NCBI GenBank assembly: GCA_038831005.1 | Contig: JAWBKZ010000003.1 | Location: 124,001-188,000, forward strand | Direction: 5' to 3' | DNA from: Ignisphaera sp. | GTDB taxonomy: Archaea > Thermoproteota > Thermoprotei_A > Sulfolobales > Ignisphaeraceae | Length of the DNA stretch: 64,000 nt | Part shown: in pieces, positions 8,913-31,910 of the stretch | Layout of the letters: every line of letters begins with the position of its first letter | Position numbering within the stretch: the first letter of the stretch is position 1 | Translations under genes and position numbers: made by a program | Notes under the pieces: model-generated | The model's input: only the letters and a program-made list of their open reading frames with translations | Databases searched by the model: none | What the model was told of the DNA's origin: nothing

Positions 8913-9326
8913 TTGTCTACGGTTATAAGAGAATTTGGAAGTATAGCTGAATTCACTAAAAGCCTAGATGATGCTGTTTCTGAATATAGAAGAAGACTAG
9001 GTGAAATGCTTAGAAGACTTGAAGAACTGAGGGTTAGATCTGAGCAAGAGAAAAAGCTTAAGGGTGTACTCACTAAACTAGGTTTGCCAGAATCATCATC
9101 ACCTAACGAGATAGCTCTACGTAATGTAAGAGTAGTAGTGAATCCATCGCCTTCACAAGAGTTATCAGCTATAGAATCAGCTGTAGAAGCATTAAACAAC
9201 AAAATTACATTGCTTACGGCTGTTAGAAAGGAGCTTGAAATACTGAGCAATATAGATGTAGAAGCTAAATTAATTGTTGTCTACATAGATGATGTACCTA
9301 GAACCGTTGTACTGAAGTTCAGTTAG
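8913..9326 (+). CDS. coiled-coil protein of unknown function
   Basis: TTG 8913 is preferred because GGTGG lies 6-7 nt upstream; a GTG at 8892 in the same frame has no such site. The 137-residue product begins STVIREFGSIAEF, followed by a strongly charged heptad-like helix (about residues 18-50), a short proline/serine linker, a second helix and a small C-terminal beta strand segment (LIVVYIDDVPRTVVLKF). It shares a roughly 140-bp divergent promoter region with the 310-residue linker protein at 7838-8770, which suggests that the two may be used together. No known domain recognised. Confidence 0.6.
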   Translation: MSTVIREFGSIAEFTKSLDDAVSEYRRRLGEMLRRLEELRVRSEQEKKLKGVLTKLGLPESSSPNEIALRNVRVVVNPSPSQELSAIESAVEALNNKITLLTAVRKELEILSNIDVEAKLIVVYIDDVPRTVVLKFS

Positions 9327-9468: not shown

Positions 9469-12400
9469 CTAAAATAGTTCTTCTTCTGGCGCTAACCTTC
9501 TAGCAAGTATGGCTCTAATCTTCATTACTGCATAAACCGCTATACCAAGACATATTAACGTGGCTATTACCGGCATGTATCTCCAAATTAGTGCTATTGG
9601 TGTTGGAGATATCGATATTAATTCGCTTCTATCATTATCAAGCGTTATATAGGGTATTTCTCCGATGTTGTAATCAGGATGTGAGACCACTATTCTATAA
9701 GACCCATAGGGTATTTTCGTCTCAATAGCGCCCCTCTCGTCTGTTATCAGTTGTGTTACTGTTGTTAAGGTTTCCATACTATATATAGTTACAATGGCGT
9801 TTCTAACAGGATTTACACCTTCTACAACTACAACCTTTAACGCATAAGTTTTTCTATCTACAGGTATAGTGATAGAGGTATCGCCTACTACATTAACAAC
9901 AATAGGCTTAGATGGTTCGTAACCTCTATCCCATGTGCCACTAGGTATGAGCTGAACCGAGTATACTCCATAGGGTATATCAAGAGATGTACTAATAGCC
10001 ATGTTCTCAGCTTTCTTTGTTCCATTGATATATACATCGAATCTTCCAACAACAATACCTATATATCTATCTTCAGCTTTAATCTCGAGTCTATATTCAA
10101 CTCTCTGAATGGGTATCTTTACATTTTGTGAAGATCTTACTTCTATAGCCATTGTATGAGACTTATAGATGGAAGTATTTGAAGGCTGTATATCAATACC
10201 GTAACTTCCATAGGGTAACATTAGATATATAGTTCTACCCGGAGGTTCAACAATACGTTCAGTAGATACAGGACCTCTCATGGCTATGGATAATGGTGAT
10301 ACAATTTTTCCATATACATCAACTAGATCTATTGTTATAGTGTAATTAACTCTGGGAACATTGACTTCTCGAACAGTATCTTCATAAACACCAAGCTCTA
10401 TATCATGTGATTCGTACACGTAATCATAGCCTTTAGATGGCGCTACCTTGAGCGTCCAATTACCGTAGGATATGCTACGTACAATCCTAGGTTCTGTAAT
10501 ATTTGACACAATTAATGTACCATTTAAGTAGAGATCAATCGGAGCAACTAGTCCTTCACTATATATGTCACGTAACCTTATATCAACTCTATACATGTTT
10601 CTAGACATGTTGATCATGTAGACCTTGACCTTAGGAACGTTCATCTCTATTTCTTTCACACCATAGACTTTTTCATAACCTTTACAAGGTTTGACTGCGG
10701 CTTTATAAGCTCCGTAGGGCAATGTTACATTAATTACATAGTTTTCAGGTGATATCATATAGAAGGTCTTGAATATAGTCATGTTTATAGGAGCTATGGG
10801 GTACGAATTTGTAAGTTCATCCACCACCTTAATCATTATATTGTATGTTTTCCTTTTGATAACTATTTGAACTTCTGTATCTCTGTCTATAAAGACCTCA
10901 GTTAGATTAGTAATATAAGCATCTTCGAAATCTTTTGAAGGTCTTACCTCTAATCTATGTACACCATATAGCATTCTGACTGTATATGTCTCTTCATATG
11001 TGTTTTCTTTCAAAACCATATCATCTATATATATATCAATTGGCGCTACAGGTTGTTTACGTTCAAAATCATCCACTATCCTTAATACAACATTATATTC
11101 TCTATATCTTAACCCTAAATCAAGATTACAGCATCTGGGTTTCGTTGGCAGGTCTGTGTATTCTTTCCTAATGATGTCTATAGTCATATCTTCTCTAAGT
11201 ATAAATCTTATAGAGCTATTGTATATGTATGGTCTACCAGTATATATGTTCAATTCGTACTCAACACCAATTAATATGTTCTTCAGCATTAGTGATGTAT
11301 TTCCATTTAATCTATACTCTACAGTACCTTCCGGATACTTGAATACAGCTATAGTATCTACTGTAGTTTCATTTCCAGGCATATTGATGTTTACCATAAT
11401 ATTCCTAGCCATTATGTCGTCAACAGACAGTATCATCTGTCTCTCTACAGCCATGTCACTGTTTCTAACAATCACTACGCTACTTAAGTCTAGTAATGCA
11501 ATTGTCGATACATCTAATAATGTGTCTCCATCTATATACCTTGGCGACGATAGACAAAGATCCAGCAATTTTCTGAATATGGGCTGCGGATAAGGAATGG
11601 TCCTTAGAACCTGAACACCACTTTCAGATACAACTACATAGGTATAGCCAGAAGCTGTAGGTATAGTGGTTATAGATCTTATTGATGGCAGTAATGTATA
11701 TATATATTTTAATGTGAAACCTCCTCCTGCTTGAGGTAAGTATACCCTTAGCCTACCATCAGATAGACCAACCATGATGTAACTTCCATCGCTATAGGTA
11801 CTCGCATCACTAATAATGGTTGTTCCTATACCTACGTAATCTTCTACTGTTACTATGTTTCTGATTCTATCCGTTTCAATAGCTACCGTTGATACATATA
11901 TGTATCCTGGAGATCCATACACGAGCTTAGACATGGCTTCTTTTGATCCACGTATAAAGAATAGTCCGTGGAGCGGTGGATCTAGAAGGAATGTTGCAGA
12001 CATGTTTCTTCCCATACTAATTGGTGCAGGTGTAGTATCTACGAGCATGAGGTTTACTCTAAGGAACCCAGGTATTCCGTATACTTTTTCTGCAGGTCTT
12101 GTATCTACATGTGATGTTGGTAGGATTGCTGGAGGTACAGGAATTTCTTCAGGAAGTATTCTGTATCTGTTAGGCTCATAAATGAATTTGTAGGTCCAAA
12201 CAATTTCGCCAGCTATATTCCTTATCACAAAAGTTATGTACGTAGGTCTTTGGGAATCTACTTGTACAGGTATGTAGGCTACTCCTCTATCATTAGCGTT
12301 TACACCATAAACCATAGAGGTAAGTCCCCTTACTGTTGCGTTTACTTCTACAAGCGCCTTTGATATAGCTTCAACTTTTCCTTCGTACATGTATGTAACA

Positions 12401-13185
12401 TTAAGGACAAATCTAACCACATCTTTTTGAGGTATATAGGCTAGTAATACTTTTGAAGCATCCCAATAGAATCCATCGTCACCATATATAGCTAGAGGAG
12501 CTACATCTTGGATATACACACCTTCATATGCTCTACCTAGAGCTGTAGCATTCCCTACCTTAGGACCTATTCTGAATACTCCTTGAGCTTCTTCATCGAG
12601 TATGTAGAGGTGACAATTCATACAAGGTGCTACACTAGCTCCTCCTTCACTTACTAACGCCAAGATCTTTACGTTTCCTACACTATCTTTTGCTAGAAAT
12701 ATTTTATTTACGTAAAAGTCTGCTCCAAGAACTATGTAGAGGTATTTGGTTATTCTACCTCCATCAACTCTGAATACAAGTATCTCTCCACGATCACTTC
12801 CAACAGCTATTCTTGTTGTTGGATAACCATCTTTGGCTGTACATGTGGGTGAGCCCGTTAATGGATAAATATCCTCTACTATAGGGTCTCTGTAGGGATT
12901 TGATACCTCAAGTACAGCAACACCATTAACATTACCTATATTACCTACAACCATAACTCTTGATCTATCTAGTAAGTTGATGTGTTTCGGTGTTATACCT
13001 ATAGATGCTAAGTCAATTGAGTATGCGAAAACCATGTTCCTAGGCTCTATGAATTGTGTATGTACATAAAGTTCTCGATTAAGGCAACACGAAACGATGC
13101 ATAGAGATATTAGTATGGCCACAACTGTAGATATCCTACTAATTCTCGATATGGGTTTCATTTTTGGTGTAAGCTTTAGGTTCAT
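9469..13185 (-). CDS. large exported, membrane-anchored repeat protein
   Basis: ATG 13185 has GGGTG 5 nt upstream; an ATG at 13197 is also possible. The N-terminus is a basic segment followed by the hydrophobic stretch STVVAILISLCIVSCC, consistent with an export signal. About residues 50-560 look like beta-propeller sequence. From about residue 690 there are six tandem modules of about 80 residues, each with a core like PYGxYxxxVxPSKGY, resembling Ig-like/carboxypeptidase-regulatory-type sandwiches. A C-terminal membrane helix (PVIATLICLGIAVYAVMKI) is followed by basic residues. I infer a surface protein anchored at its C-terminus. It is divergent from the secretion ATPase gene and opens the surface locus. 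Confidence 0.75.
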   Translation of the reverse strand: MNLKLTPKMKPISRISRISTVVAILISLCIVSCCLNRELYVHTQFIEPRNMVFAYSIDLASIGITPKHINLLDRSRVMVVGNIGNVNGVAVLEVSNPYRDPIVEDIYPLTGSPTCTAKDGYPTTRIAVGSDRGEILVFRVDGGRITKYLYIVLGADFYVNKIFLAKDSVGNVKILALVSEGGASVAPCMNCHLYILDEEAQGVFRIGPKVGNATALGRAYEGVYIQDVAPLAIYGDDGFYWDASKVLLAYIPQKDVVRFVLNVTYMYEGKVEAISKALVEVNATVRGLTSMVYGVNANDRGVAYIPVQVDSQRPTYITFVIRNIAGEIVWTYKFIYEPNRYRILPEEIPVPPAILPTSHVDTRPAEKVYGIPGFLRVNLMLVDTTPAPISMGRNMSATFLLDPPLHGLFFIRGSKEAMSKLVYGSPGYIYVSTVAIETDRIRNIVTVEDYVGIGTTIISDASTYSDGSYIMVGLSDGRLRVYLPQAGGGFTLKYIYTLLPSIRSITTIPTASGYTYVVVSESGVQVLRTIPYPQPIFRKLLDLCLSSPRYIDGDTLLDVSTIALLDLSSVVIVRNSDMAVERQMILSVDDIMARNIMVNINMPGNETTVDTIAVFKYPEGTVEYRLNGNTSLMLKNILIGVEYELNIYTGRPYIYNSSIRFILREDMTIDIIRKEYTDLPTKPRCCNLDLGLRYREYNVVLRIVDDFERKQPVAPIDIYIDDMVLKENTYEETYTVRMLYGVHRLEVRPSKDFEDAYITNLTEVFIDRDTEVQIVIKRKTYNIMIKVVDELTNSYPIAPINMTIFKTFYMISPENYVINVTLPYGAYKAAVKPCKGYEKVYGVKEIEMNVPKVKVYMINMSRNMYRVDIRLRDIYSEGLVAPIDLYLNGTLIVSNITEPRIVRSISYGNWTLKVAPSKGYDYVYESHDIELGVYEDTVREVNVPRVNYTITIDLVDVYGKIVSPLSIAMRGPVSTERIVEPPGRTIYLMLPYGSYGIDIQPSNTSIYKSHTMAIEVRSSQNVKIPIQRVEYRLEIKAEDRYIGIVVGRFDVYINGTKKAENMAISTSLDIPYGVYSVQLIPSGTWDRGYEPSKPIVVNVVGDTSITIPVDRKTYALKVVVVEGVNPVRNAIVTIYSMETLTTVTQLITDERGAIETKIPYGSYRIVVSHPDYNIGEIPYITLDNDRSELISISPTPIALIWRYMPVIATLICLGIAVYAVMKIRAILARRLAPEEELF

Positions 13186-13291
13186 TTTTACACCCATACC
13201 TACAACCTATTGATTCCTACATTAATACACTAATAGACCTTCTATATATTTCTTAATGAATGTTTCTCGAATTCTGTAGTGGAATACATAA

Positions 13292-13301: not shown

Positions 13302-13355
13302 CTACTCTACAGTAGTTAGTTTTTGTGTACCTAGATTTAGTGTTGTGTGGAGACC

Positions 13356-14990
13356 ATGTCTGGAGACACAAAGAGTACTAAATCTGTTTTTTTTAGCAAA
13401 TTTAGAGGAAAGAAGGAACAACAAAAGAAGATCGAAGAAGAGAATATAGTTGAGGAAAGTAAATCTGAAGGAGAGGCCACTGAACTCATTAGGTATACAC
13501 ATAAGCTCTACAGCATTAGAAGAGGCTACAAAGTCCTCGAGAGTTACCCCATACACGAACCTTTCGTATATATAAATATTGTTGAGGATCCTGATGGTAA
13601 ACTCGTATATGAGGTCTACGAGATTTCCCTTACACCAGAGGAGGAGAAGATATATAGAGAGGTTAAAGATCATATAGTGTGGGAGATAAAGCCTATAGCT
13701 ACCCTTGATATAGATGTTGCTAAAGAGATCAAAAAGATTGCTAGAAAGGTTATCAGAGAGTTCCAGATAAGGTTCACAAAGACACCTGGTCTTTCTTGGA
13801 GCAAGATAGAGTACTATATAGAGAGAGACGTTATAGGCTACGGTATACTTGACCCTATATTCAGGGATAGACACATAGAGGATATATCATGTAATGGTCC
13901 TAGGAAACCCGTCTATATTTGGCATAGAAAATATGAGTCTATACCTACAAACATAGAGTTCATATCTGATGTAGAGCTAGATGAATACATTCTCAAACTT
14001 GCACATATGTCTGGAAAACATATCTCTGTAGCCTATCCCATATTAGACGCCATACTGCCCGGAGGACATAGATTAGCGGCAACGTTTAGGAAAGAGGTAT
14101 CCACCTCTGGATCCACGTTCACGATAAGGAAGTTCAGCGAATCACCTATAACCATAGTTGACATGATTTCGTTCAAAACACTTTCACCAGAGATAGCTGC
14201 GTATTTCTGGCTAGCAATGGACTACAAGATGACTACACTAATAATGGGTGTAACAGGTGCAGGAAAAACATCAACATTGAATGCTCTTGCAACCCTTCTT
14301 AGACCTACGTACAAGATAGTCACTATAGAGGATACCCCTGAGATAAGGATACCCCATGAGAACTGGGTACAGCTTGTATCAAGACCTTCATATATAGGTA
14401 GTGGTGTTGGAGAGGTATCACTATTCCATCTAGTGAAACTCTCTCTGAGGTACAGGCCAGATGTCATTGTTGTCGGCGAGGTTAGAGGCGAAGAGGCTTA
14501 CGTGCTCTTCCAGGCTATCGCTACAGGTCACAGCGGTATGACCACGCTTCACGCAGAGAATATAGATGCTGCCGTCAAGAGACTTACCTCCGAACCCATG
14601 AACATACCCTCATCCTATATACCTCTGGTCAATATAGCCATGGTTATAAGGAGAGTTCAGATAAGAGATGAAAAAGGTAAATCTAGACCAGGTAGAAGAA
14701 TAACTAATATCTGGGAGGTCAGAGACTACGAAAATTATATAGAGATAGCCAGGTGGAATCCATCAGAAGACGTCTTTACCATGGATCTCAAAAACAGTAT
14801 AGTTATCAAAAGGATAGGCGAATTGACGGGACAACCATACGATGCTCTTATAGATGAGCTTGAAAGACGTAAAAGAGTTCTAGAATGGCTCATTACTAAG
14901 AAAAAGAATGACTATCGGTCTGTAGCAACATACGTCTACAGATACTATGTGGATCCCAAATCTGTATTCAAAGAGGTGGAGATAAGCTAA
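13356..14990 (+). CDS. type II/IV secretion (pilus/archaellum-type) ATPase
   Basis: A VirB11/TadA/FlaI-class hexameric ATPase that powers pilus assembly. After a charged, Lys/Glu-rich N-terminus it has the family N-domain, Walker A GVTGAGKTST near residue 298, an Asp box around EDTPEIRIP, Walker B PDVIVVGEVRGEEA and the histidine box GHSGMTTLHAEN. The start could also be GTG 13347; ATG 13356 is used as the clearer codon. Its stop overlaps the ATG of the membrane partner, so the two form one translational unit. No archaellum-specific genes (FlaF/G/H) are next to it, so I favour an adhesive pilus. Confidence 0.92.
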   Translation: MSGDTKSTKSVFFSKFRGKKEQQKKIEEENIVEESKSEGEATELIRYTHKLYSIRRGYKVLESYPIHEPFVYINIVEDPDGKLVYEVYEISLTPEEEKIYREVKDHIVWEIKPIATLDIDVAKEIKKIARKVIREFQIRFTKTPGLSWSKIEYYIERDVIGYGILDPIFRDRHIEDISCNGPRKPVYIWHRKYESIPTNIEFISDVELDEYILKLAHMSGKHISVAYPILDAILPGGHRLAATFRKEVSTSGSTFTIRKFSESPITIVDMISFKTLSPEIAAYFWLAMDYKMTTLIMGVTGAGKTSTLNALATLLRPTYKIVTIEDTPEIRIPHENWVQLVSRPSYIGSGVGEVSLFHLVKLSLRYRPDVIVVGEVRGEEAYVLFQAIATGHSGMTTLHAENIDAAVKRLTSEPMNIPSSYIPLVNIAMVIRRVQIRDEKGKSRPGRRITNIWEVRDYENYIEIARWNPSEDVFTMDLKNSIVIKRIGELTGQPYDALIDELERRKRVLEWLITKKKNDYRSVATYVYRYYVDPKSVFKEVEIS

Positions 14991-16834
14991 TGACAGCTAA
15001 ACAAGAAGATTCTAAAGCTTCTAAAAAACTCTTCAAGAAAAAAGAAGAGCAGCAGACGAAAGCTAGCCGAAAACCTGCTAGACATGTTAGAATAACTACG
15101 AGAGATGTTTTCACGGCGTTCTCTCTAACATTCTTCGAATCTACTGGTAGAAAATTCGCTAGAGCTTTTGAGCTAGAAAAAGCATTTAATAGAGCTGGCC
15201 TCAATGTACATCCTGTTAAATATGGTGCTGAAACTCTATCTATATTGTTCTTCTCGATACTGTTTACAGTTGTCGGCTTCCTCATCATAGTTCTCACTAC
15301 TCCTTTAACAGTTATTCAATTGATCATAGGCATAGTTGTAGCAATAACGATACCCCTCATGGTGCTTATGGTAAGGCTTCTCTATCCCTATATGCTCATC
15401 ACTATGAGGAGAGTGGATGTCGAGAACGAGTTACCGTTCTTTATGGCCTATATAGCTACAATGGTTAGAGGTGGATATAGTCTAGAGAAAGTTATTGAGA
15501 GAATCTCCCAGCTAAAGGTGTTTAAAGCTATTAGGAGAGAAGCCCAGAGGGTTATGACTAGGATCAAGATATTTGGTGAAGATCCTGTAACAGCTCTTGA
15601 GAAAGTTGCTTCTAATCATCCAAGCTCAAAATTCAGAGACATTATGTTGGGATACACAACTACCCTTAGGAGTGGTGGTGATGTTCTTCACTATCTAGAG
15701 ATAAGAACGAGAGAGCTTTTCGAGGCTAGAGCAACTGAGGTTAGAGGTATTCTAAATAGGCTTATGTCTTTTCTCGAAGTCTACATAATATTTGGTGTTA
15801 TCGTTTCTGTCGTTATATTTGTGTTCTTTGTAGTTTCAGCTGCTATATCTGCTGCACAAGCTCTTAGAACCCCAGAACAGCTTGAAGGCTTCTCTATCGA
15901 TATAACAACACCTTCTCTATACAACTTCTTTGTGCTACCAGTTATGGGTATAGCTATAGCTCTAGCTATACACATAAACCAGCCTAGAAATCCTGTAGGA
16001 TTTGGAGAAACATATACCGTGTTACTCACATGGATCCCCATATCTATAGCCATATTCGTAATTGCTCTGGCAGTTACAGGAGGTATGGATATCTTCATGG
16101 GGAGACTAGGTACTCAGCAAGTTAAATCAGCTGTATATGCAACTTCATCAGCACTTATAGCTCTCTCTGTACCACCAGCACTAAAGTATAGATCTCTTCT
16201 CAAAGGTCATAGAGGGCTTGTGAAAGCTACAGCAGATCTTCTTAGAGATATAAGTGAGGTAAGGAAAACTGGTCTAAGTCCAGAGAAATGCATTATCCTT
16301 GTATCTTCTAGAAACTATAGATCTCTAACACCAGTAGTCGAAAGATCTGCAGCTGCTCTATCGATAGGGTTTAGTCTTGAAGAAGCTCTTAGAAAAGCTC
16401 TAAAAGGTGTGAAAGAATGGTTCACTATAGCTTCATTCAGATTTCTAACAGATTCTATAATTGTTGGTGGTGGTTCTCCAGAGGTTATAGATACTCTAGC
16501 TAGATTCACACAAGTTTTGAGTGAGTTAGAGGAAGAAACTAGGAGAAGGATGAGGAGCCAGATATTCCTGCCATACTTCGGAGCAATACTACTCTCATCT
16601 ATACCGATAATAATTCTCTATATGCTTCTCTCTATAGCAAACATACCTATAGCCAAACTATCACCATTACTTCTAGTAATATCTCTAGGAAGTATAGTAA
16701 ACTCATACATGATGGGCATAATAGCTGGTAAAGCATCACAAACAACAATAGCTGCAGGCTTTCTCCATGCAACAATTCTAACAACAGTATCCACTATAGC
16801 GACTCTAGCAACATTCATGTACATAGGTATATAG
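14990..16834 (+). CDS. TadC/FlaJ-type pilus assembly membrane protein
   Basis: This 614-residue polytopic protein carries two T2SSF-like cytoplasmic segments, about residues 140-260 and 420-525, each followed by membrane helices (for example around IYIIFGVIVSVVIFVFFVV and PYFGAILLSSIPIIILYML). A Lys-rich 30-residue N-terminus precedes the first domain. The tandem duplication is typical of archaeal TadC/UpsF-like platforms. It starts within the stop of the ATPase gene and is followed after 10 bp by a pilin-like gene with GAGGT before its ATG. Confidence 0.9.
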   Translation: MTAKQEDSKASKKLFKKKEEQQTKASRKPARHVRITTRDVFTAFSLTFFESTGRKFARAFELEKAFNRAGLNVHPVKYGAETLSILFFSILFTVVGFLIIVLTTPLTVIQLIIGIVVAITIPLMVLMVRLLYPYMLITMRRVDVENELPFFMAYIATMVRGGYSLEKVIERISQLKVFKAIRREAQRVMTRIKIFGEDPVTALEKVASNHPSSKFRDIMLGYTTTLRSGGDVLHYLEIRTRELFEARATEVRGILNRLMSFLEVYIIFGVIVSVVIFVFFVVSAAISAAQALRTPEQLEGFSIDITTPSLYNFFVLPVMGIAIALAIHINQPRNPVGFGETYTVLLTWIPISIAIFVIALAVTGGMDIFMGRLGTQQVKSAVYATSSALIALSVPPALKYRSLLKGHRGLVKATADLLRDISEVRKTGLSPEKCIILVSSRNYRSLTPVVERSAAALSIGFSLEEALRKALKGVKEWFTIASFRFLTDSIIVGGGSPEVIDTLARFTQVLSELEEETRRRMRSQIFLPYFGAILLSSIPIIILYMLLSIANIPIAKLSPLLLVISLGSIVNSYMMGIIAGKASQTTIAAGFLHATILTTVSTIATLATFMYIGI

Positions 16835-16844
16835 AGGTAACCAA

Positions 16845-17246
16845 ATGAATACATTTTTTGCTGCAATAATAATACTTGGAGTAGCTATAGCGATAACAAT
16901 AGCTGCTGTAGTATGGATAACAACAACATATCACTCAATGATTTGGAGACCAGAAATACTAAAAATAATAGAGATAGAGATATATAGAAACACTACAGAC
17001 AACAACTGGTGGCTCTACATAAAAGCTGAAAACATGGGAGAAAACAAAGCAGAAATATACAAACTAGAGATATACGGAATAGAGATAAAAGAACTCAAAC
17101 CACCAAAAACCATTGATCCAGGAAAAATCGACGAAATATACATAAAGCTAGATAAAGAATACGTATATGGAACAATGTATACAGTAAAACTATACCTAAA
17201 ATCAGGAACAGTATACCCAGTACTAGAAAAAACAATAAGAGTATAA
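16845..17246 (+). CDS. small pilin-like protein with N-terminal membrane helix
   Basis: The 133-residue product starts with a hydrophobic helix (about residues 4-26, AAIIILGVAIAITIAAVVW) and continues with a beta-rich domain, the layout of archaeal type IV pilins and pseudopilins. There is no positively charged prepeptide before the helix, so it may not be cleaved by the prepilin peptidase. It follows TadC by 10 bp with its own GAGGT site. Codons end mostly in A or C, unlike the genes just downstream. Confidence 0.7.
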   Translation: MNTFFAAIIILGVAIAITIAAVVWITTTYHSMIWRPEILKIIEIEIYRNTTDNNWWLYIKAENMGENKAEIYKLEIYGIEIKELKPPKTIDPGKIDEIYIKLDKEYVYGTMYTVKLYLKSGTVYPVLEKTIRV

Positions 17247-17292: not shown

Positions 17293-17326
17293 CCGAGCTA
17301 ACAACCAATATATAGTGGGAGAAAAA

Positions 17327-17734
17327 ATGAAGAAACTATACAGAGGTATAGAGCCAATAATAGCTGTGGTAATACTTGTAGCAATAACACTAGTCATAGC
17401 AATAGGAGTAATAGGATGGATAATGGGTTGGTGGGGAACCTTTGGAGCAACAGAAAGCATAAAAATATTCCCAGACAGCTACATTAACTCAACTAATGGA
17501 CGACTGATTCTGCATTTAAAGAATGAGGGATCAGCAACAGCTGTTATCTATAAAATAGAACTAACTGGAGGATTAACTGTTAATTTGGCTGGGGACCTTA
17601 CTGTTTCTCCTGGTGTGGAATCAACAGAAACAATTAGTATAGCTGGTGGTAATCCTATTAGTGGTACTAATTATCAGGTCAAGATATATACTAGAGCTGG
17701 TAATGTTATCTCAGCTACTGTACAGGCTAGGTAA
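17327..17734 (+). CDS. archaeal type IV pilin (candidate main subunit)
   Basis: ATG 17327 follows a GGGAG site. The N-terminus MKKLYRG then IEPIIAVVILVAITLVI is a class III (prepilin) signal: a short basic leader, glycine at the cut site, and a hydrophobic assembly helix with a glutamate early in the mature part. The mature head is a small beta domain of about 95 residues. It has its own promoter, so it may be made in excess of the assembly proteins. The 5' third uses A/C-ending codons and the 3' half T-ending codons. No prepilin peptidase is visible in the window. Confidence 0.85.
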   Translation: MKKLYRGIEPIIAVVILVAITLVIAIGVIGWIMGWWGTFGATESIKIFPDSYINSTNGRLILHLKNEGSATAVIYKIELTGGLTVNLAGDLTVSPGVESTETISIAGGNPISGTNYQVKIYTRAGNVISATVQAR

Positions 17735-19021: not shown

Positions 19022-20068
19022 TTGGAGATTATATGGAGCCATGTTTCGAGTCCTAGTGGCTATAGAGATGGTGTATATAGTGTATGTGTTTCTAGCGGTA
19101 TTGTGTATGCTGTTGGTTTCGATGAGCTGATGGGCTACGGTAAACAGAGGTATCGTGTAGAAGGTGTAGATGCTAGAGATGGGCATATGATAGCTAAATG
19201 GGTTGACGATAAAGCACATTCCTTCGCATCTCTATACAGCTGTACAGCTGTTGGCGACCGTATCTATGTTTTTGGTGCAACAGATAGATTCTGGACCATT
19301 ATGGTATTCGATAAACTTCTCAACCCCGTGAAGAGAGTAGATAGAGAGAAGCCATATATATTACCGTTTTCTGTAGTTAATGTGGGTAGATATATCTATG
19401 TAGCAGGTGTAGAGATAACTCCTACAGGTTCTACAGCTATCCATGTATCTAGGATATCTATAGACGATCTATCTATAGTCAATAGCTATACATCTAATCC
19501 AAAAGATAGAGGTGCAGGTGCATACTCTATAGCGTATAACAAGAAAATGAAGCAGATTATTGTTGGAGGATTCGATAAAATTGATGGTGTATCCAACTGG
19601 AGAATAGAGTATCTAACCGAAGACCTCAACCTGATCAAGATATCTAGACCCAGTGTAAAGGGATCGATAACTGGTTTAGCTCTTGATGCAGATGGATTCA
19701 TATATACAGCAGGTAGAACACGTATAGCTAGAATCAGTAGAGAAGGAGAAACACTAAACACAGTTACATCACCACAAGCAGTCAAGATATATACATCACA
19801 AGAATCTCTACCAATACTAGGAACAAATATAGCTGTAGCAACAGACAACGAAGCATATATACTCACAAATGATACACTATCGATAGTAGAGGCAATAAGA
19901 CTCTCTAGAGGACCACAAATACTATCAATGATGCTAGGATCTATGGATGCAGATAACGAGAGAATATATCTAGCATCAACACAAATAGCAACAAAAGATG
20001 ATTGGAACTGGTCAATACTAGCTCTAAAACCAAGAGGAAGAGGATTCCTAAGACTCTTCAGAAGATAA
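19022..20068 (+). CDS. beta-propeller-like protein of unknown function
   Basis: TTG 19022 has GGTGAT 5 nt upstream. The 348 residues contain repeated blade-like units with the pattern xxYVAGxxx or xxYAVGxxx followed by a turn and an IxRIS or VxRV strand, as in WD40/NHL/YVTN-type propellers of about six or seven blades. No signal peptide or membrane helix is visible, so it would be cytosolic. It closes the rightward part of the surface locus. The coding strand shifts from T/G-rich at the 5' end to A/C-rich at the 3' end. Confidence 0.6.
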   Translation: MEIIWSHVSSPSGYRDGVYSVCVSSGIVYAVGFDELMGYGKQRYRVEGVDARDGHMIAKWVDDKAHSFASLYSCTAVGDRIYVFGATDRFWTIMVFDKLLNPVKRVDREKPYILPFSVVNVGRYIYVAGVEITPTGSTAIHVSRISIDDLSIVNSYTSNPKDRGAGAYSIAYNKKMKQIIVGGFDKIDGVSNWRIEYLTEDLNLIKISRPSVKGSITGLALDADGFIYTAGRTRIARISREGETLNTVTSPQAVKIYTSQESLPILGTNIAVATDNEAYILTNDTLSIVEAIRLSRGPQILSMMLGSMDADNERIYLASTQIATKDDWNWSILALKPRGRGFLRLFRR

Positions 20069-20279: not shown

Positions 20280-21950
20280 CTATCTATAGAAAGGTACCAC
20301 ACCTATAAACTCTAACCCAACTGTAAAATCTGCATCATTTCTTAGCCCTGTTCCATAGCTGTCTTGAAATGCTACTGCTATCCAGTATCTACCTGTTGAT
20401 GGAAGAGGTACATATATTGATTGAGATATTTTCGCAAAATAGTTATCTCTACCGAAATCTGTTACACGTGTTTTGTGATAATTGCATATCTCTTGGTATC
20501 TATACTCTCTAATTATATACTCGTTATTGTCTCTATCTATAAGCAGTATCCTTAAAACCCAATCAGTTCTATCAATATCATTAAGCTGATTTTCATCAGG
20601 ATGAGAATTATCGTGAAAGAATATGTTCATGTATAGAGCTACACCAGAATATACACTTCCATCTATTGATCCATCATCTGAACCCAAGGCTCTACCTATC
20701 TGCAGAAGCTTTAAAGTAAGTGGAACAGTAGTCCAATCACTTAAATCATCATTTCCATACATATCATTGGTTCTAGAGCTATTACCGTAATACGCATCTT
20801 CTGTTATAAATATTATCTCGTTTAAACCATTTCCATCTATATCACCTATAAACAGATATGGATAATAAGATGACTCGCCAGTAACCGAATTCTCCGAGGC
20901 CATCCTCATGAATCTAGCTACATATGTAGCAAAACCATTCAAATATATCCTAATTGAGCTATCTGTAGTTCCATAGTACCAGGTACCTATTGCTGGTAGA
21001 TCTATACCGCTACATCCGCTCGGTACTGTAGAAGAACAGGCAATAATAGTGTTATCTTTTTTTATCTGGATAACACCTGTATAGTTATTTATGACAATTC
21101 TATAGCCATTGCCAGTTAATGTATATTGTTTACCACCTATTGTTATCTTTTCTTGACCTGTAAATGCTGGACCAGATATCATTATCGTGAATCTCGGTGG
21201 TATATCTTCATTAGGTTTACTCATCTTTTCTCTAACCCAGCTAGGATCATAACCGATTACTGCAACACCAAAAGCTACACCACTACTCTCTGTTTCAACG
21301 GTTGCATTTATGAATTCTGCTTCTTGACCTGGTGGAAGCAGCAATAGTTTTGATGATTTTACTCCTCTGTATCTCTCTTGAGTCATACTTCTTGTGTATG
21401 GTTTTGCTATAAGACTTCTATTTACATCAAATATTTCTTGTAGATCTTCTGGAGAATTTATGTTGTCGAATGTTATAGATATCATGTAGGTTGTGTTAGC
21501 TCTAACAGCATAAGCTTTTATTAGAGGTTCATGTATATCTACAACTGTTCCACCAGGTGTTACAATAGCTATGTATTCGTAATCTCGTCTACACGTTATT
21601 GCTCTATATGTTGGTATTACACATGAACTACATATACCTTGGGAAACAATGTTTATTGCATCTACAACTTGTATAGAGCCTGTGTAGTCTTTTATTATCA
21701 TTTTGTCTATAACTATATCGCTTGAACCTATATTCTTGATCTCAACACTATTCATGGTTTTATTTAACACAAGCTGATGTATTTCATGGGAATGTGAATA
21801 TCTCACAATATTTCTGAATGCTATAGAACTGGTGTATGCAGAATGCATCATATTGAGTATAACATATGTGGATACTACCAAAACTACTAGAGAGATCATG
21901 AATGAAATAAATGCTGTTGAAATACCCTTACCTAGTCTAGATCTATCCAT
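20280..21950 (-). CDS. large pilin-like surface protein with shared C-terminal module (1)
   Basis: Last gene of the five-gene pilin-like operon; ATG 21950 follows GGTGGTGA. The N-terminus MDRSRLGKG then ISTAFISFMISLVVLVVS is a class III prepilin-like signal and assembly helix. A beta-rich middle contains a CSSC motif. From about residue 360 to the end is a module of about 190 residues beginning YLFIGDIDGNGLNEIIF and ending FTVGLEFIGV, shared with the two genes upstream. DxDGNGxxE resembles a calcium-binding loop. At 556 residues it is far larger than ordinary archaeal pilins, suggesting a tip adhesin or structural surface fibre. Confidence 0.75.
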   Translation of the reverse strand: MDRSRLGKGISTAFISFMISLVVLVVSTYVILNMMHSAYTSSIAFRNIVRYSHSHEIHQLVLNKTMNSVEIKNIGSSDIVIDKMIIKDYTGSIQVVDAINIVSQGICSSCVIPTYRAITCRRDYEYIAIVTPGGTVVDIHEPLIKAYAVRANTTYMISITFDNINSPEDLQEIFDVNRSLIAKPYTRSMTQERYRGVKSSKLLLLPPGQEAEFINATVETESSGVAFGVAVIGYDPSWVREKMSKPNEDIPPRFTIMISGPAFTGQEKITIGGKQYTLTGNGYRIVINNYTGVIQIKKDNTIIACSSTVPSGCSGIDLPAIGTWYYGTTDSSIRIYLNGFATYVARFMRMASENSVTGESSYYPYLFIGDIDGNGLNEIIFITEDAYYGNSSRTNDMYGNDDLSDWTTVPLTLKLLQIGRALGSDDGSIDGSVYSGVALYMNIFFHDNSHPDENQLNDIDRTDWVLRILLIDRDNNEYIIREYRYQEICNYHKTRVTDFGRDNYFAKISQSIYVPLPSTGRYWIAVAFQDSYGTGLRNDADFTVGLEFIGVVPFYR

Positions 21951-21961
21951 AGATTCACCAC

Positions 21962-23431
21962 CTAGCGACTAGAGAGAGCTATACCTATATACTCTAACCC
22001 GATTATTAAATCTGTATCATTTCTATTAACTTCGCGACTATAGGGATCTAGAAACTCTATAGCTAGATAGTAAATGTTCCCTGTTTTCGGTATATGTATA
22101 GTGAAGTCCTTAGCTATATATGATATAGAGAATGGCTTTACATTTCTATATCTATTAAGCTCATAGTAGCTAAGCTGGGTACTGTATATAAACAATCTAG
22201 TAGAAGCATCATAGAGACCAACCCTCATTATAACCCTATTATCGTTATCACTTATATCATCTCCAGAACTATCCCAGAAAAACATCCTCATACTGAGTAT
22301 AGCTGAAGAATACATATTGCTATCTATAGGTACACCAGTAAAAACAATTCTCATAGGATTAACCGTAGAGTCTATATAATAGAGATCACTCGTATCTTCT
22401 CTGATGTAGTCATTAACTCTCGTTCTACTACCTGTTGTGAAATCTTGTGTAACAAATATTATCTCTACATTACTGTTATTGTTTATATCGCCTACAAATA
22501 TATATGGATCTAGACCAACAACACCTGATATACTTCTACTCGCATTATATAGTGTAATTCTATCTGCTCTACCATTTAGAACTAGATTGCAGAAACTAGA
22601 TCTATTTATATAGCATGTATGTATACCCAAGCCCAGGTTTATAGATCCTGTGAAATTCTCTATCTTGAGCCTATATCTAGCAGGAGCTACCCCAGCTATA
22701 CTCATTATCGAGTCACCAACTCTTATATAGGAATTAGATCTACCTCTCCCTATAGCAAGTATATTTAGTTTTTTGGTTACAGGATCTGCTACACCTATGA
22801 ACACTAGTGAGGCATTGAGTTGTGCTTCTACATTTATGTTTATACCAGATGCATTTATTATGGGGGTTAATGACGTAGTAGTATTTATTGCACCTCTATA
22901 CATAATTGACTTATTTTCTAAGAACTTCAGCAGTTCAGAAGTTGATTTAAGCATAACACCACCATATATAGTGGTCATAGGTATTCCTAGTGTTTTCTCA
23001 AGAGCTATAGCATAGAATTCGGGGCTTACAGAGAATACTCTACCGTTTTCAGTAATGATGGCTATAGGTATATAGCCTAGACAGCTAACCATAGATGTAT
23101 CTTCAGGTCTGAGGATCGTTGATGATATATTGCATAGTTTATTAGATGATACATCAATAACTATTTTCGTGCCACCACTACTAACCGCAACTATATGTGT
23201 TATACGTGATACTGTAGAACCAACATTCTTTATATTTAATACATTCTCTATCAAAAATGGAACAAGCTTCTCATTAACATAGCTACTAGGTGTAGCTACA
23301 ACTTGTTGCTGGATCAACAATACTGAATAGAAGTTTAGAATTAGATAAAATATAGAAATAGCTATAATAGAGAAAGCAATAACAACAGCAACACCTTCAG
23401 CAATACCTCTCCTCAATTTATTACATACCAT
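21962..23431 (-). CDS. large pilin-like surface protein with shared C-terminal module (2)
   Basis: ATG 23431 has AGGTGAAG 6 nt upstream; 11 bp separate its stop from the next gene. The N-terminus MVCNKLRRG then IAEGVAVVIAFSIIAIS is prepilin-like, with a charged residue early in the mature helix. The C-terminal about 185 residues align with the modules of the two flanking genes: YIFVGDINNNSNVEIIF, SRTRVNDY, MFFWDSSGDD, PKTGNIYYLAIEFLDPY, DLIIGLEYIGI. The middle section is divergent, which is what a surface-exposed variable region would look like. Confidence 0.75.
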   Translation of the reverse strand: MVCNKLRRGIAEGVAVVIAFSIIAISIFYLILNFYSVLLIQQQVVATPSSYVNEKLVPFLIENVLNIKNVGSTVSRITHIVAVSSGGTKIVIDVSSNKLCNISSTILRPEDTSMVSCLGYIPIAIITENGRVFSVSPEFYAIALEKTLGIPMTTIYGGVMLKSTSELLKFLENKSIMYRGAINTTTSLTPIINASGININVEAQLNASLVFIGVADPVTKKLNILAIGRGRSNSYIRVGDSIMSIAGVAPARYRLKIENFTGSINLGLGIHTCYINRSSFCNLVLNGRADRITLYNASRSISGVVGLDPYIFVGDINNNSNVEIIFVTQDFTTGSRTRVNDYIREDTSDLYYIDSTVNPMRIVFTGVPIDSNMYSSAILSMRMFFWDSSGDDISDNDNRVIMRVGLYDASTRLFIYSTQLSYYELNRYRNVKPFSISYIAKDFTIHIPKTGNIYYLAIEFLDPYSREVNRNDTDLIIGLEYIGIALSSR

Positions 23432-23447
23432 ATAACTTCACCTAAAA

Positions 23448-25031
23448 TCAGCTTATCGGTAATATAGATAGAGACTCTATATAGAGAGTGAAATCAAGAT
23501 CATCTAGATTACCGTTATAGTGATAAGGATCTTGGATAGCTATAAACACATAGAACTTCTTTTCACCAGTTTCTCTCGGTGGAAGAGGTATGAATACTAA
23601 GCTACTTTGTGCTTGTGCTGTTGGTGGAGAAGTATCTTCGTATCTCGTTAACTCTCTAAAAGTATAGCTTCTATAGCTATAGATAGCTCCATTCTCGTCA
23701 ACAAGACCAACAAGCATTATAGGTCTATCGACAGATATTCCAGTAGCATCGCTACCCTCATTATCATGAAACCTATAGTTAACAGCAATAACAACAGCAC
23801 TACTATCATAATTAGATACAACATAATCTCTATACACCAGGACAAGAGCTTGTGTAGAATAATCAAGTAAAGAATCAACATCTTCATTTCTAGTGTTGTA
23901 AGATCCCCCTGTTCTGTCTATTGATGTAAATAGTATTCCTGCTGAACCAGAGCTTTTGTCTGTGTTCATGAGCATTATGTATGGATTGTAGCTTGATTCT
24001 GAACCTGTTGAACGTACATATATCTCGATTCTATCAGCTCTACCACTCAAAACCAATGCACTATTGTTGAATGTATAATCAGCTATATCTTGGCTTGGTC
24101 GTGTAATGCTTTTCTCTCTAAGTCGTAGAATTTCTTGAGATGTTGATGGTGTAAAACCGTATATCTTTATCCTTGTATAAGTGTTTGTTGTTACCCCTCT
24201 GCCACCTATTGATAATACATTTGATGTAATGCTATCCGCTGTTATGAGTATGTTGTATCTTGATGTGTTTCTAGGATCATAACCTATCCATAGATTCCTT
24301 ATGTTCAAATTATTTATTCTTATCTCTGTGTTTGTATATACATTTTGTAGGCTCCATATGTGTTTTGTTGTTGTTCCTCCACTCATACCTTTTCCTAGGT
24401 CTGTGAATTGTGATATTCTTGTTGGATTATCTCTATTGTCTAGAGTAGATATGTTGAATGATTTTCTGAAGATAGATATGTTCCATATCTCATCATTTGG
24501 TGCTAGTTTCATGGGTATGAGCTGTATTGCTGAAGATATTCCTATAGGTATTGTTGTATTGAAGAGTTGTGATTGTATTTTCTGTAGATCTTCTGGTGTT
24601 AATACTGTGCTACTTATTACTGATCCTTCTACTGTTATTAGGTGTAGAGCTACTGTTCTTTGGTTTTGACATAGCGATGGAATTGGTATGGATATCAGAA
24701 CGGTTTGTCCTGACTTTATTGTTGTTTGTATATGTGTGTCTATATAGTGGTTTGTGTTTTCACAAGATATGTGTAGAATTGCTTTCTCTATCTCTATATC
24801 TGTTCCACCTATATTGGTTAAATATAGTTCTGAACTTGATGTATTAAGGAATGCCCTAATATCTCTACTCATCTCTTTCATAGCTATTGATACTCTTCTG
24901 GTTGTTGGGTTTTCATATAGTTGTTGATTATTTAGTAAAGCATAGTAGATGTGAACTGTTAGAGGTATTACTGATAGTATTAGAATTGAGAAGAATAGTA
25001 TAGCTATTATTATGTTTCCCTGACCCTTCAT
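23448..25031 (-). CDS. large pilin-like surface protein with shared C-terminal module (3)
   Basis: ATG 25031 is preceded by GAGGTGG with 7-nt spacing inside the end of the upstream gene. The start MKGQ then GNIIIAILFFSILILSVI has the archaeal KGQ prepilin cut-site style. Conserved C-terminal elements from about residue 345 are YNPYIMLMNTD, TRNEDVDSLLDYS, YRFHDNEGSD, RPIMLVGLVD and YVFIAIQDPYHYNGNLDDLDF. It has the weakest DxDGNG loop of the three (NTDKSSGSAGI). Codon bias reverses sharply inside the gene near 23900. Confidence 0.75.
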   Translation of the reverse strand: MKGQGNIIIAILFFSILILSVIPLTVHIYYALLNNQQLYENPTTRRVSIAMKEMSRDIRAFLNTSSSELYLTNIGGTDIEIEKAILHISCENTNHYIDTHIQTTIKSGQTVLISIPIPSLCQNQRTVALHLITVEGSVISSTVLTPEDLQKIQSQLFNTTIPIGISSAIQLIPMKLAPNDEIWNISIFRKSFNISTLDNRDNPTRISQFTDLGKGMSGGTTTKHIWSLQNVYTNTEIRINNLNIRNLWIGYDPRNTSRYNILITADSITSNVLSIGGRGVTTNTYTRIKIYGFTPSTSQEILRLREKSITRPSQDIADYTFNNSALVLSGRADRIEIYVRSTGSESSYNPYIMLMNTDKSSGSAGILFTSIDRTGGSYNTRNEDVDSLLDYSTQALVLVYRDYVVSNYDSSAVVIAVNYRFHDNEGSDATGISVDRPIMLVGLVDENGAIYSYRSYTFRELTRYEDTSPPTAQAQSSLVFIPLPPRETGEKKFYVFIAIQDPYHYNGNLDDLDFTLYIESLSILPIS

Positions 25032-25678
25032 CCTAGAGCCACCTCATGTACACCAACAATATAGGGTGTACCACCATGGATCGTAACTATAAATATTCTG
25101 GCTATAGATGTTTCTGGAAGCTGTATTCTGGCTATAGTGCTATCTCTACATAGACCTTGAGTAGATGTGTATCTACATACATTCTCAATTCTACAGATAT
25201 GTATAGTATCTGAAAGTGTGAAGCCCATAGATCTTGCATATGAACGGAAATCAACTATAGATCCTTCCCAAGGCACATACACTCTCTCCATAGATCCAGA
25301 GTATATAGATGAAGAATATATACAGTCTCTCCCAACATCATTACATATAACTCCATCACTATCTTCACGAGGATTATAGAAAGAGATAGAGTTACAAGGC
25401 AGATAAGATGTACCTACATCAACAGCAACAAAAAAATCACTTAGAGATCCATCAATTCTCTTGAACAAGAGCCATAGAGTAGATGCTCTATCATCATAAG
25501 ATATCTCGCTAACAAATATATTAACAGATTCTATCTGAAGATTATTCAATAAATCTAGCTGACTTCTATAGCCAGCAAGTACTGAAGAGAAGTAACTAAG
25601 CATAGCTACACCTACAACAACTGCAAGACCTATATACATGAATGTTGTAAGTAACTCACTCTGACCCTTTACAAACAT
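25028..25678 (-). CDS. pilin-like protein with cysteine-rich head
   Basis: About 216 residues; ATG 25678 fits the GGG site better than ATG 25684, two codons upstream. The leader MFVKGQ then SELLTTFMYIGLAVVVGVA is a class III signal of the KGQSE type. The head domain carries seven cysteines, enough for disulfide cross-linking in a surface protein of a hyperthermophile. Its stop overlaps the start of the next gene by 4 bases. It lacks the large C-terminal module. Confidence 0.7.
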   Translation of the reverse strand: MFVKGQSELLTTFMYIGLAVVVGVAMLSYFSSVLAGYRSQLDLLNNLQIESVNIFVSEISYDDRASTLWLLFKRIDGSLSDFFVAVDVGTSYLPCNSISFYNPREDSDGVICNDVGRDCIYSSSIYSGSMERVYVPWEGSIVDFRSYARSMGFTLSDTIHICRIENVCRYTSTQGLCRDSTIARIQLPETSIARIFIVTIHGGTPYIVGVHEVALG

Positions 25679-25728
25679 AACCATAATCCCTTACACCATA
25701 TATAATCTACTCTAGATAGATAAAAAAC

Positions 25729-26913
25729 CTAACTAAACTTGTAATCATATTCCTCAACTAGATGTGGAACATTGTTTATATAAGTCACAACAAGTATTGA
25801 TAATCTATCGACTTTAGCTTCATCTGGCATAGAACCTATATAAACAGCTCTAGCTATACCTTCGGCATGTAGATTGTTGCTATCAAGTTGTAGAACCATT
25901 TGGGTAGAGCTGTCTATCTTCCAGTCTACAACCTTTATATAGTCGCTATTGTTCCAGTAATCAACAAGTGTTGAACCTCCGTATGTTACTCTTACGAATC
26001 CTGGTGGTATAGGCATTATCTCTATAGCTAGTGTTGATCTTAGCGAATCTATGTCTATAGCTACCTCACTTTTTATCTCTACATTAACATTTCTCTCGAG
26101 TAGAGCATTATTTATATATACTCTTTCTGCAGAAACGTTAAACGATAGAATCCATGCACCTATCTGACCATTTGGAAGCTGTTGTGGTGTTAGATCTATC
26201 TTTCCTATCCTTGTATTTACATCAACTCTAACAATATCTCCTTCTTTAAGCTGGTACCAACTACCATTAACTGATATATGTGTTCCTCTAGGATTGCCCA
26301 GGTATGCAACTCTAAACTCTATAGATCCATATAATCTCCATACACGATTATTAGAATGAACCACTACTTTGTTATATCCTTTGGCTACTGGTTCTAGTTC
26401 TTTTGCTAGCTGTAGAACTAGAACAGCGTTTTTGTCTATCTCTAGCTCACATATCTCTATATAGCCTGTATCTGGATATCCTTTAGCTCTAGCATAGTAT
26501 TTAAAGCTATAGATAGTGTCTCTAGATACTACAGTAACATCATCAACTCTATGCATATATCTATTGATTATCCTTCCACCAACAACATCTCTAACAACAT
26601 CTGAACAATTGATATAGCTACTACCATTGAATAACGTAAGCCATATCTTGTTGCTGGTGTCAAGTCTTCTAAAAAGTAGAGCTATAGATCCTTTCGAAGA
26701 ATTAATAAGTCTCACAATAGTGCTTAACCTCTCGTGCTCAATAACCCTCTGGATAACTAGTAGATTCTGCTGTATACTGTAATCACTCTGCATATAGCTA
26801 AGAAAAGATACAGATAGAGCCACAGCTACTCCAAGCAATATTGCTAGAGCTACTGTATCTGATAGACCTCTACGTAGATTCCTAATATGTGTAGACATAT
26901 CCTCTACAACCAT
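25729..26913 (-). CDS. pilin-like protein, first gene of the surface operon
   Basis: The 394-residue protein has a longer leader (MVVEDMSTHIRNLRRG) before the assembly helix LSDTVALAILLGVAVALSV. The body is beta-rich and the C-terminus (LSILVVTYINNVPHLVEEY) resembles that of the 218-residue neighbour, but it has no copy of the 190-residue module. A TATA box about 25 bp upstream puts the transcript start at or next to the ATG, so this gene is probably translated leaderless while the downstream four have clear Shine-Dalgarno sites. Confidence 0.7.
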   Translation of the reverse strand: MVVEDMSTHIRNLRRGLSDTVALAILLGVAVALSVSFLSYMQSDYSIQQNLLVIQRVIEHERLSTIVRLINSSKGSIALLFRRLDTSNKIWLTLFNGSSYINCSDVVRDVVGGRIINRYMHRVDDVTVVSRDTIYSFKYYARAKGYPDTGYIEICELEIDKNAVLVLQLAKELEPVAKGYNKVVVHSNNRVWRLYGSIEFRVAYLGNPRGTHISVNGSWYQLKEGDIVRVDVNTRIGKIDLTPQQLPNGQIGAWILSFNVSAERVYINNALLERNVNVEIKSEVAIDIDSLRSTLAIEIMPIPPGFVRVTYGGSTLVDYWNNSDYIKVVDWKIDSSTQMVLQLDSNNLHAEGIARAVYIGSMPDEAKVDRLSILVVTYINNVPHLVEEYDYKFS

Positions 26914-30445: not shown

Positions 30446-30491
30446 ATCTTAAAATTACATTTTTAATATCAGTATACCTTTGGGGTGTAGA

Positions 30492-31910
30492 TTGAGAAAA
30501 GATTCTGCAGATTTTTTGGATATCGAGCCTAGATTAAAGAAACTAGTTGTTGCTAATCTAGATGATGTATGTGGATATGTTTTGAGTAGATATAGGGTTG
30601 GTTTAGCTGAAGTTGTTATCTGTGTAGATAAACAGAATACAGCTAGATACCTAGTTCTAGAGCCTCATGTAGATGATGTATGCGGAAAGCTTTACCCCTT
30701 GATCATGGATTCACTCTATGTGTCGCTACTTGATGTCTCTTCTGAAGAAACTCTCGAAAATACTGTCGATACTATAGCATCTGGATTAGGTTTCAGAGAT
30801 TCCTTTAGACAATGTAGAGAAACGCTCATGTATTACGTAAAGAGGGATTCCTTTGGCTATGGAGTTCTTGACGTCTTATTTAGGGATCCAGGGATAGAGG
30901 ATATAGAACTTTGTGATTGGAGGAAACCTGTAACTGTTATTCATAGAGATTTCCTTATTTTTGAAGCACTTTTAACGAATATACAGTTCAGTAGTGAAGA
31001 AGAGGCTAGAGGCTATGTAGAGAGACTAGCACTCAAAGGTGGCAAAAGTATCTCATTAGCTAAACCAGAAATACATACAGTACTATCTGAAGGACACAGA
31101 CTTTCAGTGACCCTGGGCAATCCTGTGAGTAGAGGCCCCACATTTAGTATTAGAAAGCTTCCCGATACCCCCATAGATATTGTTACCCTCATAAATCAGA
31201 AAGTTGTAGAACCTCATCTAGCAGCACTAATATGGCTCGTGAATGACGCGAAACTATTCTACGGCATTATAGGTGGTAGTGGAACAGGTAAAACAACTAT
31301 TCTTAATGCCTTTCTTCAGCTTACAGACCCGAACTGGAAGATAATAGTTGTCCAAGATGTTATGGAGATAAGGATGCCGACAAGATCAAGGTTCATACAA
31401 TTTTTTGGAGAATCATCAGAAGAGATACTTCAGAGATGCTTCACAGCATTAAGATATAGACCAGATATTCTTGTTGTTGGCGAAGTTAGAGGTAGAGAGA
31501 TATCAGCGCTTGTAAGAGCTGTTGCCTCTGGTTCTGGCTCCACTACGACATTTCATGCATCTTCTCCCGAAGAATATGAAATGGCTGTAAGAAATCTATT
31601 GCCAAGAGATCTGTACACAATGTTGTCGCTAAATACAGCACTATTGATCTTCGTTTCACGTATACGTATAGAAAACAGTCTCGCTAGAAGGATTTGGAAA
31701 GTATATGAACGGGTTAATGATGAATGGAGAGAAATATATGGACCCGAGAACGACTCTATATACACTAGCTATATACTCAAGAGATTAAGCAGACGGCTAC
31801 TTATAGACGATATTGAGGCAGATCTAGAGTATAGAACAAAAATACTGATGTCTACTCAACAAGGATTTGAATCCGTTGAAAAACTCCTAAAGAAGTTCTA
31901 TAGAGTCTAA
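30492..31910 (+). CDS. second VirB11/TadA-type secretion ATPase, orphan
   Basis: TTG 30492 is chosen because GGGGTG lies 5 nt upstream; the TTG at 30480 is part of that site's surroundings. The 472-residue protein has Walker A GGSGTGKTT, an Asp box VVQDVMEIRMP, Walker B PDILVVGEVRGREI and SGSGSTTTFHAS. It is shorter and divergent from the pilus ATPase at 13.4 kb. No TadC/FlaJ-type partner or pilin adjoins it: the right neighbour is convergent uL2, with overlapping stop codons. It may power a separate machine or share a platform encoded elsewhere. Confidence 0.88.
   Translation: MRKDSADFLDIEPRLKKLVVANLDDVCGYVLSRYRVGLAEVVICVDKQNTARYLVLEPHVDDVCGKLYPLIMDSLYVSLLDVSSEETLENTVDTIASGLGFRDSFRQCRETLMYYVKRDSFGYGVLDVLFRDPGIEDIELCDWRKPVTVIHRDFLIFEALLTNIQFSSEEEARGYVERLALKGGKSISLAKPEIHTVLSEGHRLSVTLGNPVSRGPTFSIRKLPDTPIDIVTLINQKVVEPHLAALIWLVNDAKLFYGIIGGSGTGKTTILNAFLQLTDPNWKIIVVQDVMEIRMPTRSRFIQFFGESSEEILQRCFTALRYRPDILVVGEVRGREISALVRAVASGSGSTTTFHASSPEEYEMAVRNLLPRDLYTMLSLNTALLIFVSRIRIENSLARRIWKVYERVNDEWREIYGPENDSIYTSYILKRLSRRLLIDDIEADLEYRTKILMSTQQGFESVEKLLKKFYRV

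Follow-up and report, generated by a model that had tools for sequence, protein, structure and literature searches.

The tip of the type IV pilus (T4P) of S. sanguinis, PilA-PilB-PilC, consists of modular pilins with lectin and vWA modules (PMC9934059, PMC8179133), and the Kil pilus of Myxococcus bears exchangeable three-subunit tips, KilL-KilM-KilN (PMC12075869). Archaeal pili are regarded as the source of the Tad system (PMC10191384). As far as our literature search shows, the make-up of the tip in archaeal type IV pili is still to be worked out. The available portion of Makarova et al. (2016) reports three to four extra components of untraced origin in the T4P loci of Desulfurococcales subclade 4A, with a guess at the minor pilin set, and describes no domain, fold, triplication, or exchange for those components (PMC4858521). 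A paper on "dark matter islands" names Ignisphaera solely in the context of CRISPR.

We describe here a tight run of five prepilin-like genes (MP5, MP4, LP3, LP2, LP1) on the minus strand at 20280-26913 of the window, which is the whole 64,000-nucleotide stretch of DNA analyzed. The host is a crenarchaeal genome (1.7 Mb, 99.5% complete) whose closest named relatives at the locus are Ignisphaera MAGs. The spacing of the genes, with 44 bp between MP5 and MP4, a 4-bp overlap of MP4 and LP3, 16 bp between LP3 and LP2, and 11 bp between LP2 and LP1, is as expected for an operon. The three ORFs of 556, 489, and 527 aa with prepilin-type N-termini that the initial annotation had noted are present as claimed; however, its three-gene set is part of a five-gene operon, since 25028-26913 adds two smaller prepilins:

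20280..21950, minus strand: LP1 (P0001), large modular prepilin of 556 aa, last gene of the operon (ORF; orthologues L001-L010; alignment A1; structure model)
21962..23431, minus strand: LP2 (P0002), large modular prepilin of 489 aa (ORF; alignment A2; hhalign to LP1 100%)
23448..25031, minus strand: LP3 (P0003), large modular prepilin of 527 aa (ORF; alignment A3; model of residues 147-527, pTM 0.87)
25028..25684, minus strand: MP4 (P0004), small prepilin of 218 aa, accompanying LPs at most of the loci read (sequence and gene maps)
25729..26913, minus strand: MP5 (P0005), prepilin of 394 aa, first operon gene in Ignisphaera-like loci (related to MP4 by profile)

Read directly, the N-termini of LP1, LP2, and LP3 carry a class-III-like prepilin motif (GKG/ISTAF, RRG/IAEGV, and KG/QGNII, respectively) followed by a hydrophobic helix, so that the LPs have both the class III signal peptide and the long hydrophobic N-terminal helix (residues 3-57 in the LP1 model) of type IV prepilins. 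They are not members of Pilin_N (PF07790) by sequence, as no protein of this genome, LPs included, matched that family at E<=0.001. The first five mature positions contain no acidic residue in 10/10 LP1 orthologues; MP4 (QSE) and MP5 (LSD) of the window have one. The bacterial capping tip pilin likewise lacks Glu5, a parallel that may not extend to archaea.

The tails of the three LPs, compared alone by pairwise BLAST, are clearly similar to each other: 32% identity over 220 aa for LP1/LP2 (E=3e-22), 29% over 207 aa for LP2/LP3 (E=2e-16), and 27% over 227 aa for LP1/LP3 (E=4e-14). The scores of 55-77 bits compare with 28 bits for the best shuffle (300 shuffles per pair), in agreement with the earlier proposal of alignable C-terminal modules in all three proteins, and every tail motif named in that proposal was found in the sequences. 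Across the LPs, pairwise identity is 27-33% in the tails and 10-26% in the pilin stem. The module was put at about 190 residues and proves to be larger, comprising the ~210-225 C-terminal residues plus one strand ahead of the middle of the protein. The C-terminal parts are:

20283..20960, minus strand: LP1 jelly-roll tail, residues 331-556, the most conserved part (tail BLAST; 60-77% identity to orthologues; VIA Z 9.9)
21965..22597, minus strand: LP2 jelly-roll tail, residues 279-489 (tail BLAST; identity to orthologues)
23451..24077, minus strand: LP3 jelly-roll tail, residues 319-527 (tail BLAST; VIA Z 10.7)
20817..20846, minus strand: LP1 GDIDGNGLNE loop, residues 369-378, a possible calcium site (read from sequence)

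Eight tail columns (P364, D385, D405, D447, E487, Y491, P517, and D530 in LP1 numbering) are invariant over 29 sequences, as is N73 in the pilin head. The DxDGNGxxE loop, which had been ascribed to the first copy, is conserved in the form GDxDG/D in 10/10 LP1 orthologues; it is mostly kept in LP2 and is lost in LP3. Acidic residues of the jelly rolls probably hold calcium. The tails contain no named domain in Pfam, NCBIfam, PHROG, or PDB sequence searches. Specifically, the Pfam CBM families gave zero matches in 29/29 tails at E<=0.5, the PDB sequence search was negative, and the LPs have no PilY1, DUF2341, lectin, or vWA family match in Pfam. A weak FG-GAP signal in 3/29 tails (best E 0.03, not significant) probably comes from a DxDxDG-like loop and was rejected. 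Zero viral contigs encode a relative of LP1.

The AlphaFold2 model of LP1, built from an alignment of 29 LPs (mean pLDDT 83.9, pTM 0.69), predicts a helix at residues 3-57, a beta head at 60-140, and a large beta region that extends to the C-terminus. Residues 147-527 of LP3 were modelled alone (pTM 0.87). The C-terminal domain of LP1 aligned by VIA at Z 9.9 with 3km5 (156 residues, 3.6 A) and 2y64 (154 residues, 3.1 A), and that of LP3 with 2y64 (Z 10.7, 156/167 residues, rmsd 3.5 A). Matches were to the jelly rolls of CBM4/CBM16/CBM22, gingipain K (cleaved adhesin), MAM, and Eph ligand-binding domains at Z 9 to 10.7 over ~155 residues, nearly the whole target domain; the CBM, Eph, and MAM rows were tied, and the best rows were carbohydrate-binding modules and adhesin domains. 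The models of LP1 and LP3 both predict a jelly roll (Z 9.9 and 10.7) rather than unrelated folds. Thus, the models place the tail in a well-populated jelly-roll fold class, whereas its sequence family is absent from the libraries searched. The description of the module as unrecognized therefore holds for the sequence libraries, which are silent, but not for its fold class, which is known. A Z of ~10 marks the fold class of the LP jelly roll and proves neither function nor descent, jelly rolls being common. Long Foldseek alignments to Cry toxins, IBDV VP2, and phage proteins had rmsd of 15-29 A and were set aside.

The LP models thus have the predicted jelly-roll beta-sandwich of CBM4 and its relatives, but the LPs do not belong to a CBM family by sequence. 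Likewise, the jelly rolls of CBM4, gingipain K, MAM, and Eph have the same overall arrangement as the LP models, whereas the LPs show no detectable sequence similarity to them. Unlike these known jelly rolls, the LPs have ~150 extra residues after the first strand. VIA alignments of LP1 start at residues 152-155 and end at 553-556, and those of LP3 start at residue ~166. Because the aligned range starts before the middle and covers only ~155 of 400 residues, strand 1 appears to precede the middle, and these limits, together with the listed strands, lead us to infer that the middle is an insertion into the jelly roll:

21531..21779, minus strand: LP1 Ig-like pilin head, residues 58-140 (LP1 model; profile match 8fk7)
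21465..21497, minus strand: LP1 jelly-roll strand 1, residues ~152-162, ahead of the inserted domain (VIA ranges; strand E157-159; approximate boundary)
20961..21464, minus strand: LP1 putative inserted middle domain, residues ~163-330 (from the model; equivalent insertion in the LP3 model)

The helix and head of LP1 match the archaeal flagellin/pilin chain 8fk7 (profile E=3e-4), and in the LP1 model this pilin head at 58-140 is followed by an extra globular domain, the jelly roll with its insert, as in modular minor pilins. The middles had been described as different, and pairwise they are indeed unrecognizable (E 0.03-0.1), but profiles align them (99.8-100%). Since the profiles of the three LP families (9-10 orthologues each) align over essentially their full length by hhalign (100, 99.9, and 99.8%), the sequences identify LP1, LP2, and LP3 as full-length paralogues.

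In the gene maps read, prepilin-type proteins bear the tail family in f1, f2, f3, f4, f6, and f8, all families of the order, and it was also found in G230 and G483, two genomes that belong to different families within the phylum; matches in f5 were to the pilin stem only. The module is therefore present in other archaea on pilin-type stems. Loci follow two plans: many genomes have one LP beside one MP, and elsewhere, as in the window, a single MP is followed by three LPs. The neighboring LP-MP pair was found again in most loci read. In an unrooted tree of 61 tails, LP1/position C, LP2/position B, and LP3/position A form clades with bootstraps of 100, 98, and 100%, respectively, that match the gene order MP-LP3-LP2-LP1 across families f1, f2, f6, and f8; shuffled labels never do. 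This tree rules out independent recent duplications and marks the LP trio as an ancient, retained triplication. Instead of three mutually different adhesins with a common tail, as first proposed, the LPs are fixed-position paralogues in this tree, and such separate clades with fixed places are expected of distinct, non-exchangeable subunits of one complex. Single LPs fall in several groups of the tree, and two copies may possibly have been lost in some lineages.

The operon adjoins a locus for T4P machinery, so that the new surface fibre suggested by the initial annotation is not needed:

9469..13197, minus strand: GIANT, 1242-aa surface protein with a C-terminal TM helix, divergent from the ATPase (sequence; gene maps)
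13347..14990, plus strand: T4P assembly ATPase (T2SSE; Pfam PF00437, 4e-34)
14990..16834, plus strand: TadC-like platform protein (T2SSF; Pfam PF00482, 7e-20)
16845..17246, plus strand: small prepilin pilX (ORF; conserved beside TadC in L004, L067, L106, and L111)
17315..17734, plus strand: probable major pilin, UpsA-like (NCBIfam NF046073, 5e-12, below the curated cut-off; TIGR02537, over the cut-off)

In two genomes (G052 and G131) the operon lies inside this locus, with a single LP and a single MP in one run with the ATPase, TadC, and pilin genes. In two others (G387 and G389), the LP trio and the pilus machinery are on different contigs. GIANT is secreted and has repeated Ig/CnaB-like stretches, with a match to the collagen adhesion protein PDB 6fwv over residues 1068-1180 (E=6e-5). 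Many genomes of the order retain it as a neighbor of the T4P ATPase, and it is a candidate for the base of the pilus or for a stalk on the surface.

Congeners with the same machinery can carry a different cassette, in which the LPs are replaced by an MP and one prepilin of ~390-410 aa (type B). Common to both tip types are the 1242-aa protein, the ATPase, TadC, small pilins, a multi-TM gene, and a kelch-like protein. The type-B stem is homologous to the LP stem (hhalign 97.8% over 130 residues). A relationship of the type-B tail to the LP jelly-roll tail was rejected (hhalign 5%), even though a DxDxNGxxE-like loop is common to both. Both types occur within each of three genera: g1 (G294 and G383 versus G000, G161, and others), g17 (G367-G369 versus G366 and G370), and g163 (G421 and G423 versus G422 and G424). 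A good match to the 1242-aa protein was obtained in 38 genomes, of which 15 encode the jelly-roll type alone, 12 type B alone, 1 (G388) both, and 10 neither (one-sided Fisher p=0.002, with the relatedness of the genomes ignored); over all 214 genomes, exclusion is not significant (p=0.17). One genome (G244) has a third type, a 717-aa prepilin within the pilus locus (L118:4707-6860) whose tail is unlike the jelly roll by sequence. A type-B example at L107:12575-13735 is ~387 aa long, and its family keeps the DxDxNGxxE-like loop and a RLEYxAVTG end.

We consider it probable that the operon encodes a heteromeric minor-pilin tip of a type IV pilus in Ignisphaera-like and related Thermoproteota. 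The modular tip adhesins of the initial annotation are the best reading: their modular pilin build is read from the sequences and predicted models, and we infer the tip position and the ligand. This reading is favored by the five co-operonic prepilins with adjoining T4P genes, by the single run of LP, MP, and machinery genes in G052 and G131, by the recurring LP-MP pair, by a tail better conserved than the pilin head or TadC, by the jelly-roll fold in two paralogues with CBMs and adhesin domains as the best rows, and by the S. sanguinis PilA-PilB-PilC and Myxococcus Kil precedents; the alternative tips on the same machinery set favor exchange. Co-operonic LPs in a fixed order and in separate clades fit a tip complex, short of showing its location. 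Counted against the tip are the high conservation of the tail, unlike that of adhesins under diversifying pressure, and the LP trio away from the machinery genes in G387 and G389; the two p values, one ignoring relatedness and the other not significant, count against the evidence for exchange. In the proposed pathway, a prepilin peptidase would trim the leaders of the five prepilins, and MP4 and LP1-3 would assemble first, their helices bundling in the membrane to prime the pilus. The adjacent ATPase and TadC would then extrude the pilus behind the MP4/LP bundle, and the three bulky jelly rolls, too large for the shaft, would form a heterotrimeric head at its distal end. At least one of the three jelly rolls would probably bind carbohydrate or a glycosylated surface, possibly with calcium. 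The whole cassette would be exchangeable on the same pilus machinery for a type with a different tail.

Like the LPs, S. sanguinis PilABC are large minor pilins with a pilin stem, an Ig-like part, and a grafted domain; they form a small heteromeric complex of the kind we propose for the LPs, and PilC has a beta-sandwich lectin module. Unlike the LPs, they are bacterial, and the modules of PilB and PilC (vWA and ConA-like lectin) are mutually unrelated, whereas the three paralogous LPs share one jelly roll, interrupted by an inserted domain. The Kil pilus resembles the proposed LP tip in that its tip is built of three minor pilins and comes in versions that can be exchanged on a single machine; several Kil tips coexist per genome, whereas the archaeal loci here usually have one type per genome.

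The tail is the slowest-evolving part of the LPs measured. Identity of LP1 to the genera of L005 and L007-L009 is 60-63% in the tail, 37-42% in the insert, and 14-18% in the head, compared to 45-47% for TadC in genus g157 (G401 and G404-G406), to which L005-L009 appear to belong. Such slow evolution fits a conserved ligand or conserved head-head contacts and is not the pattern of an arms-race adhesin. It would also be expected if the jelly rolls packed together as a structural cap and primer with no ligand, and a different protein (the major pilin or the 1242-aa protein, for example) were responsible for attachment. That LP1, LP2, and LP3 never swap places is consistent with this explanation, as is the conservation of the bacterial core minor pilins HIJK, which prime assembly (PMC10191384). 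However, a 40-kDa head would be needless for a pure primer, and genomes of other families make do with one LP or a quite different tail, so we regard this alternative as unlikely.

The resemblance of the fold to carbohydrate-binding modules would equally suit a short pseudopilus or bindosome-like surface assembly that takes polysaccharide or sugars for uptake, rather than an extended adhesive pilus; in the available portion of PMC4858521, the Sulfolobus bindosome is T4P-related and has a ~500-aa secreted component. Against this, the UpsA-like character of the small prepilin nearby suggests an extended pilus, and a sugar transporter was not found as a conserved neighbor among the annotated neighbors in the loci listed. 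This explanation is improbable. We hold it similarly improbable that the LPs are minor pilins along the filament, acting as bulky decorations that provide many weak attachment points. Some bacteria do have system-specific minor pilins along the shaft (PMC10191384), but three distinct subunits of 490-560 aa with a fixed order and a small partner suggest a complex of defined stoichiometry, and such very large heads would be hard to fit in a helical shaft. That the tails are enzymes (glycan hydrolases or lyases) delivered at the cell surface is very doubtful: there are conserved acidic residues, and multidomain glycosidases are among the Foldseek rows, but those rows align over ~140-156 residues only, equivalent to one accessory domain, and no family match was obtained.

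The system behind the minor-pilin tip reading is real, new in its details, and of a known kind. We judge the odds to be even that three paralogous jelly-roll pilins, each with an insert, form a fixed heterotrimer that is a previously undescribed archaeal tip, and that close relatives exchange whole cassettes while keeping a single conserved machine. Some of the extra Desulfurococcales components of Makarova et al. (2016) may be genes of the LP operon. For the candidate tip genes named here, we now have a domain layout, a likely small partner, evidence of an old triplication, and natural exchange between congeners, and the tip location, the ligand, and the role of each LP head become directly testable.

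A kelch/beta-propeller-like protein (19022-20068, plus strand) adjoins the tip operon and is conserved with both tip types (L067, L107, and L113). Relatives of a 144-aa ORF at 8892-9326 (plus strand) adjoin GIANT and the ATPase in L032, L069, L106-L108, L110, L111, L115, and L118. The window also contains a second T2SSE-type ATPase at 30480-31910 (plus strand).
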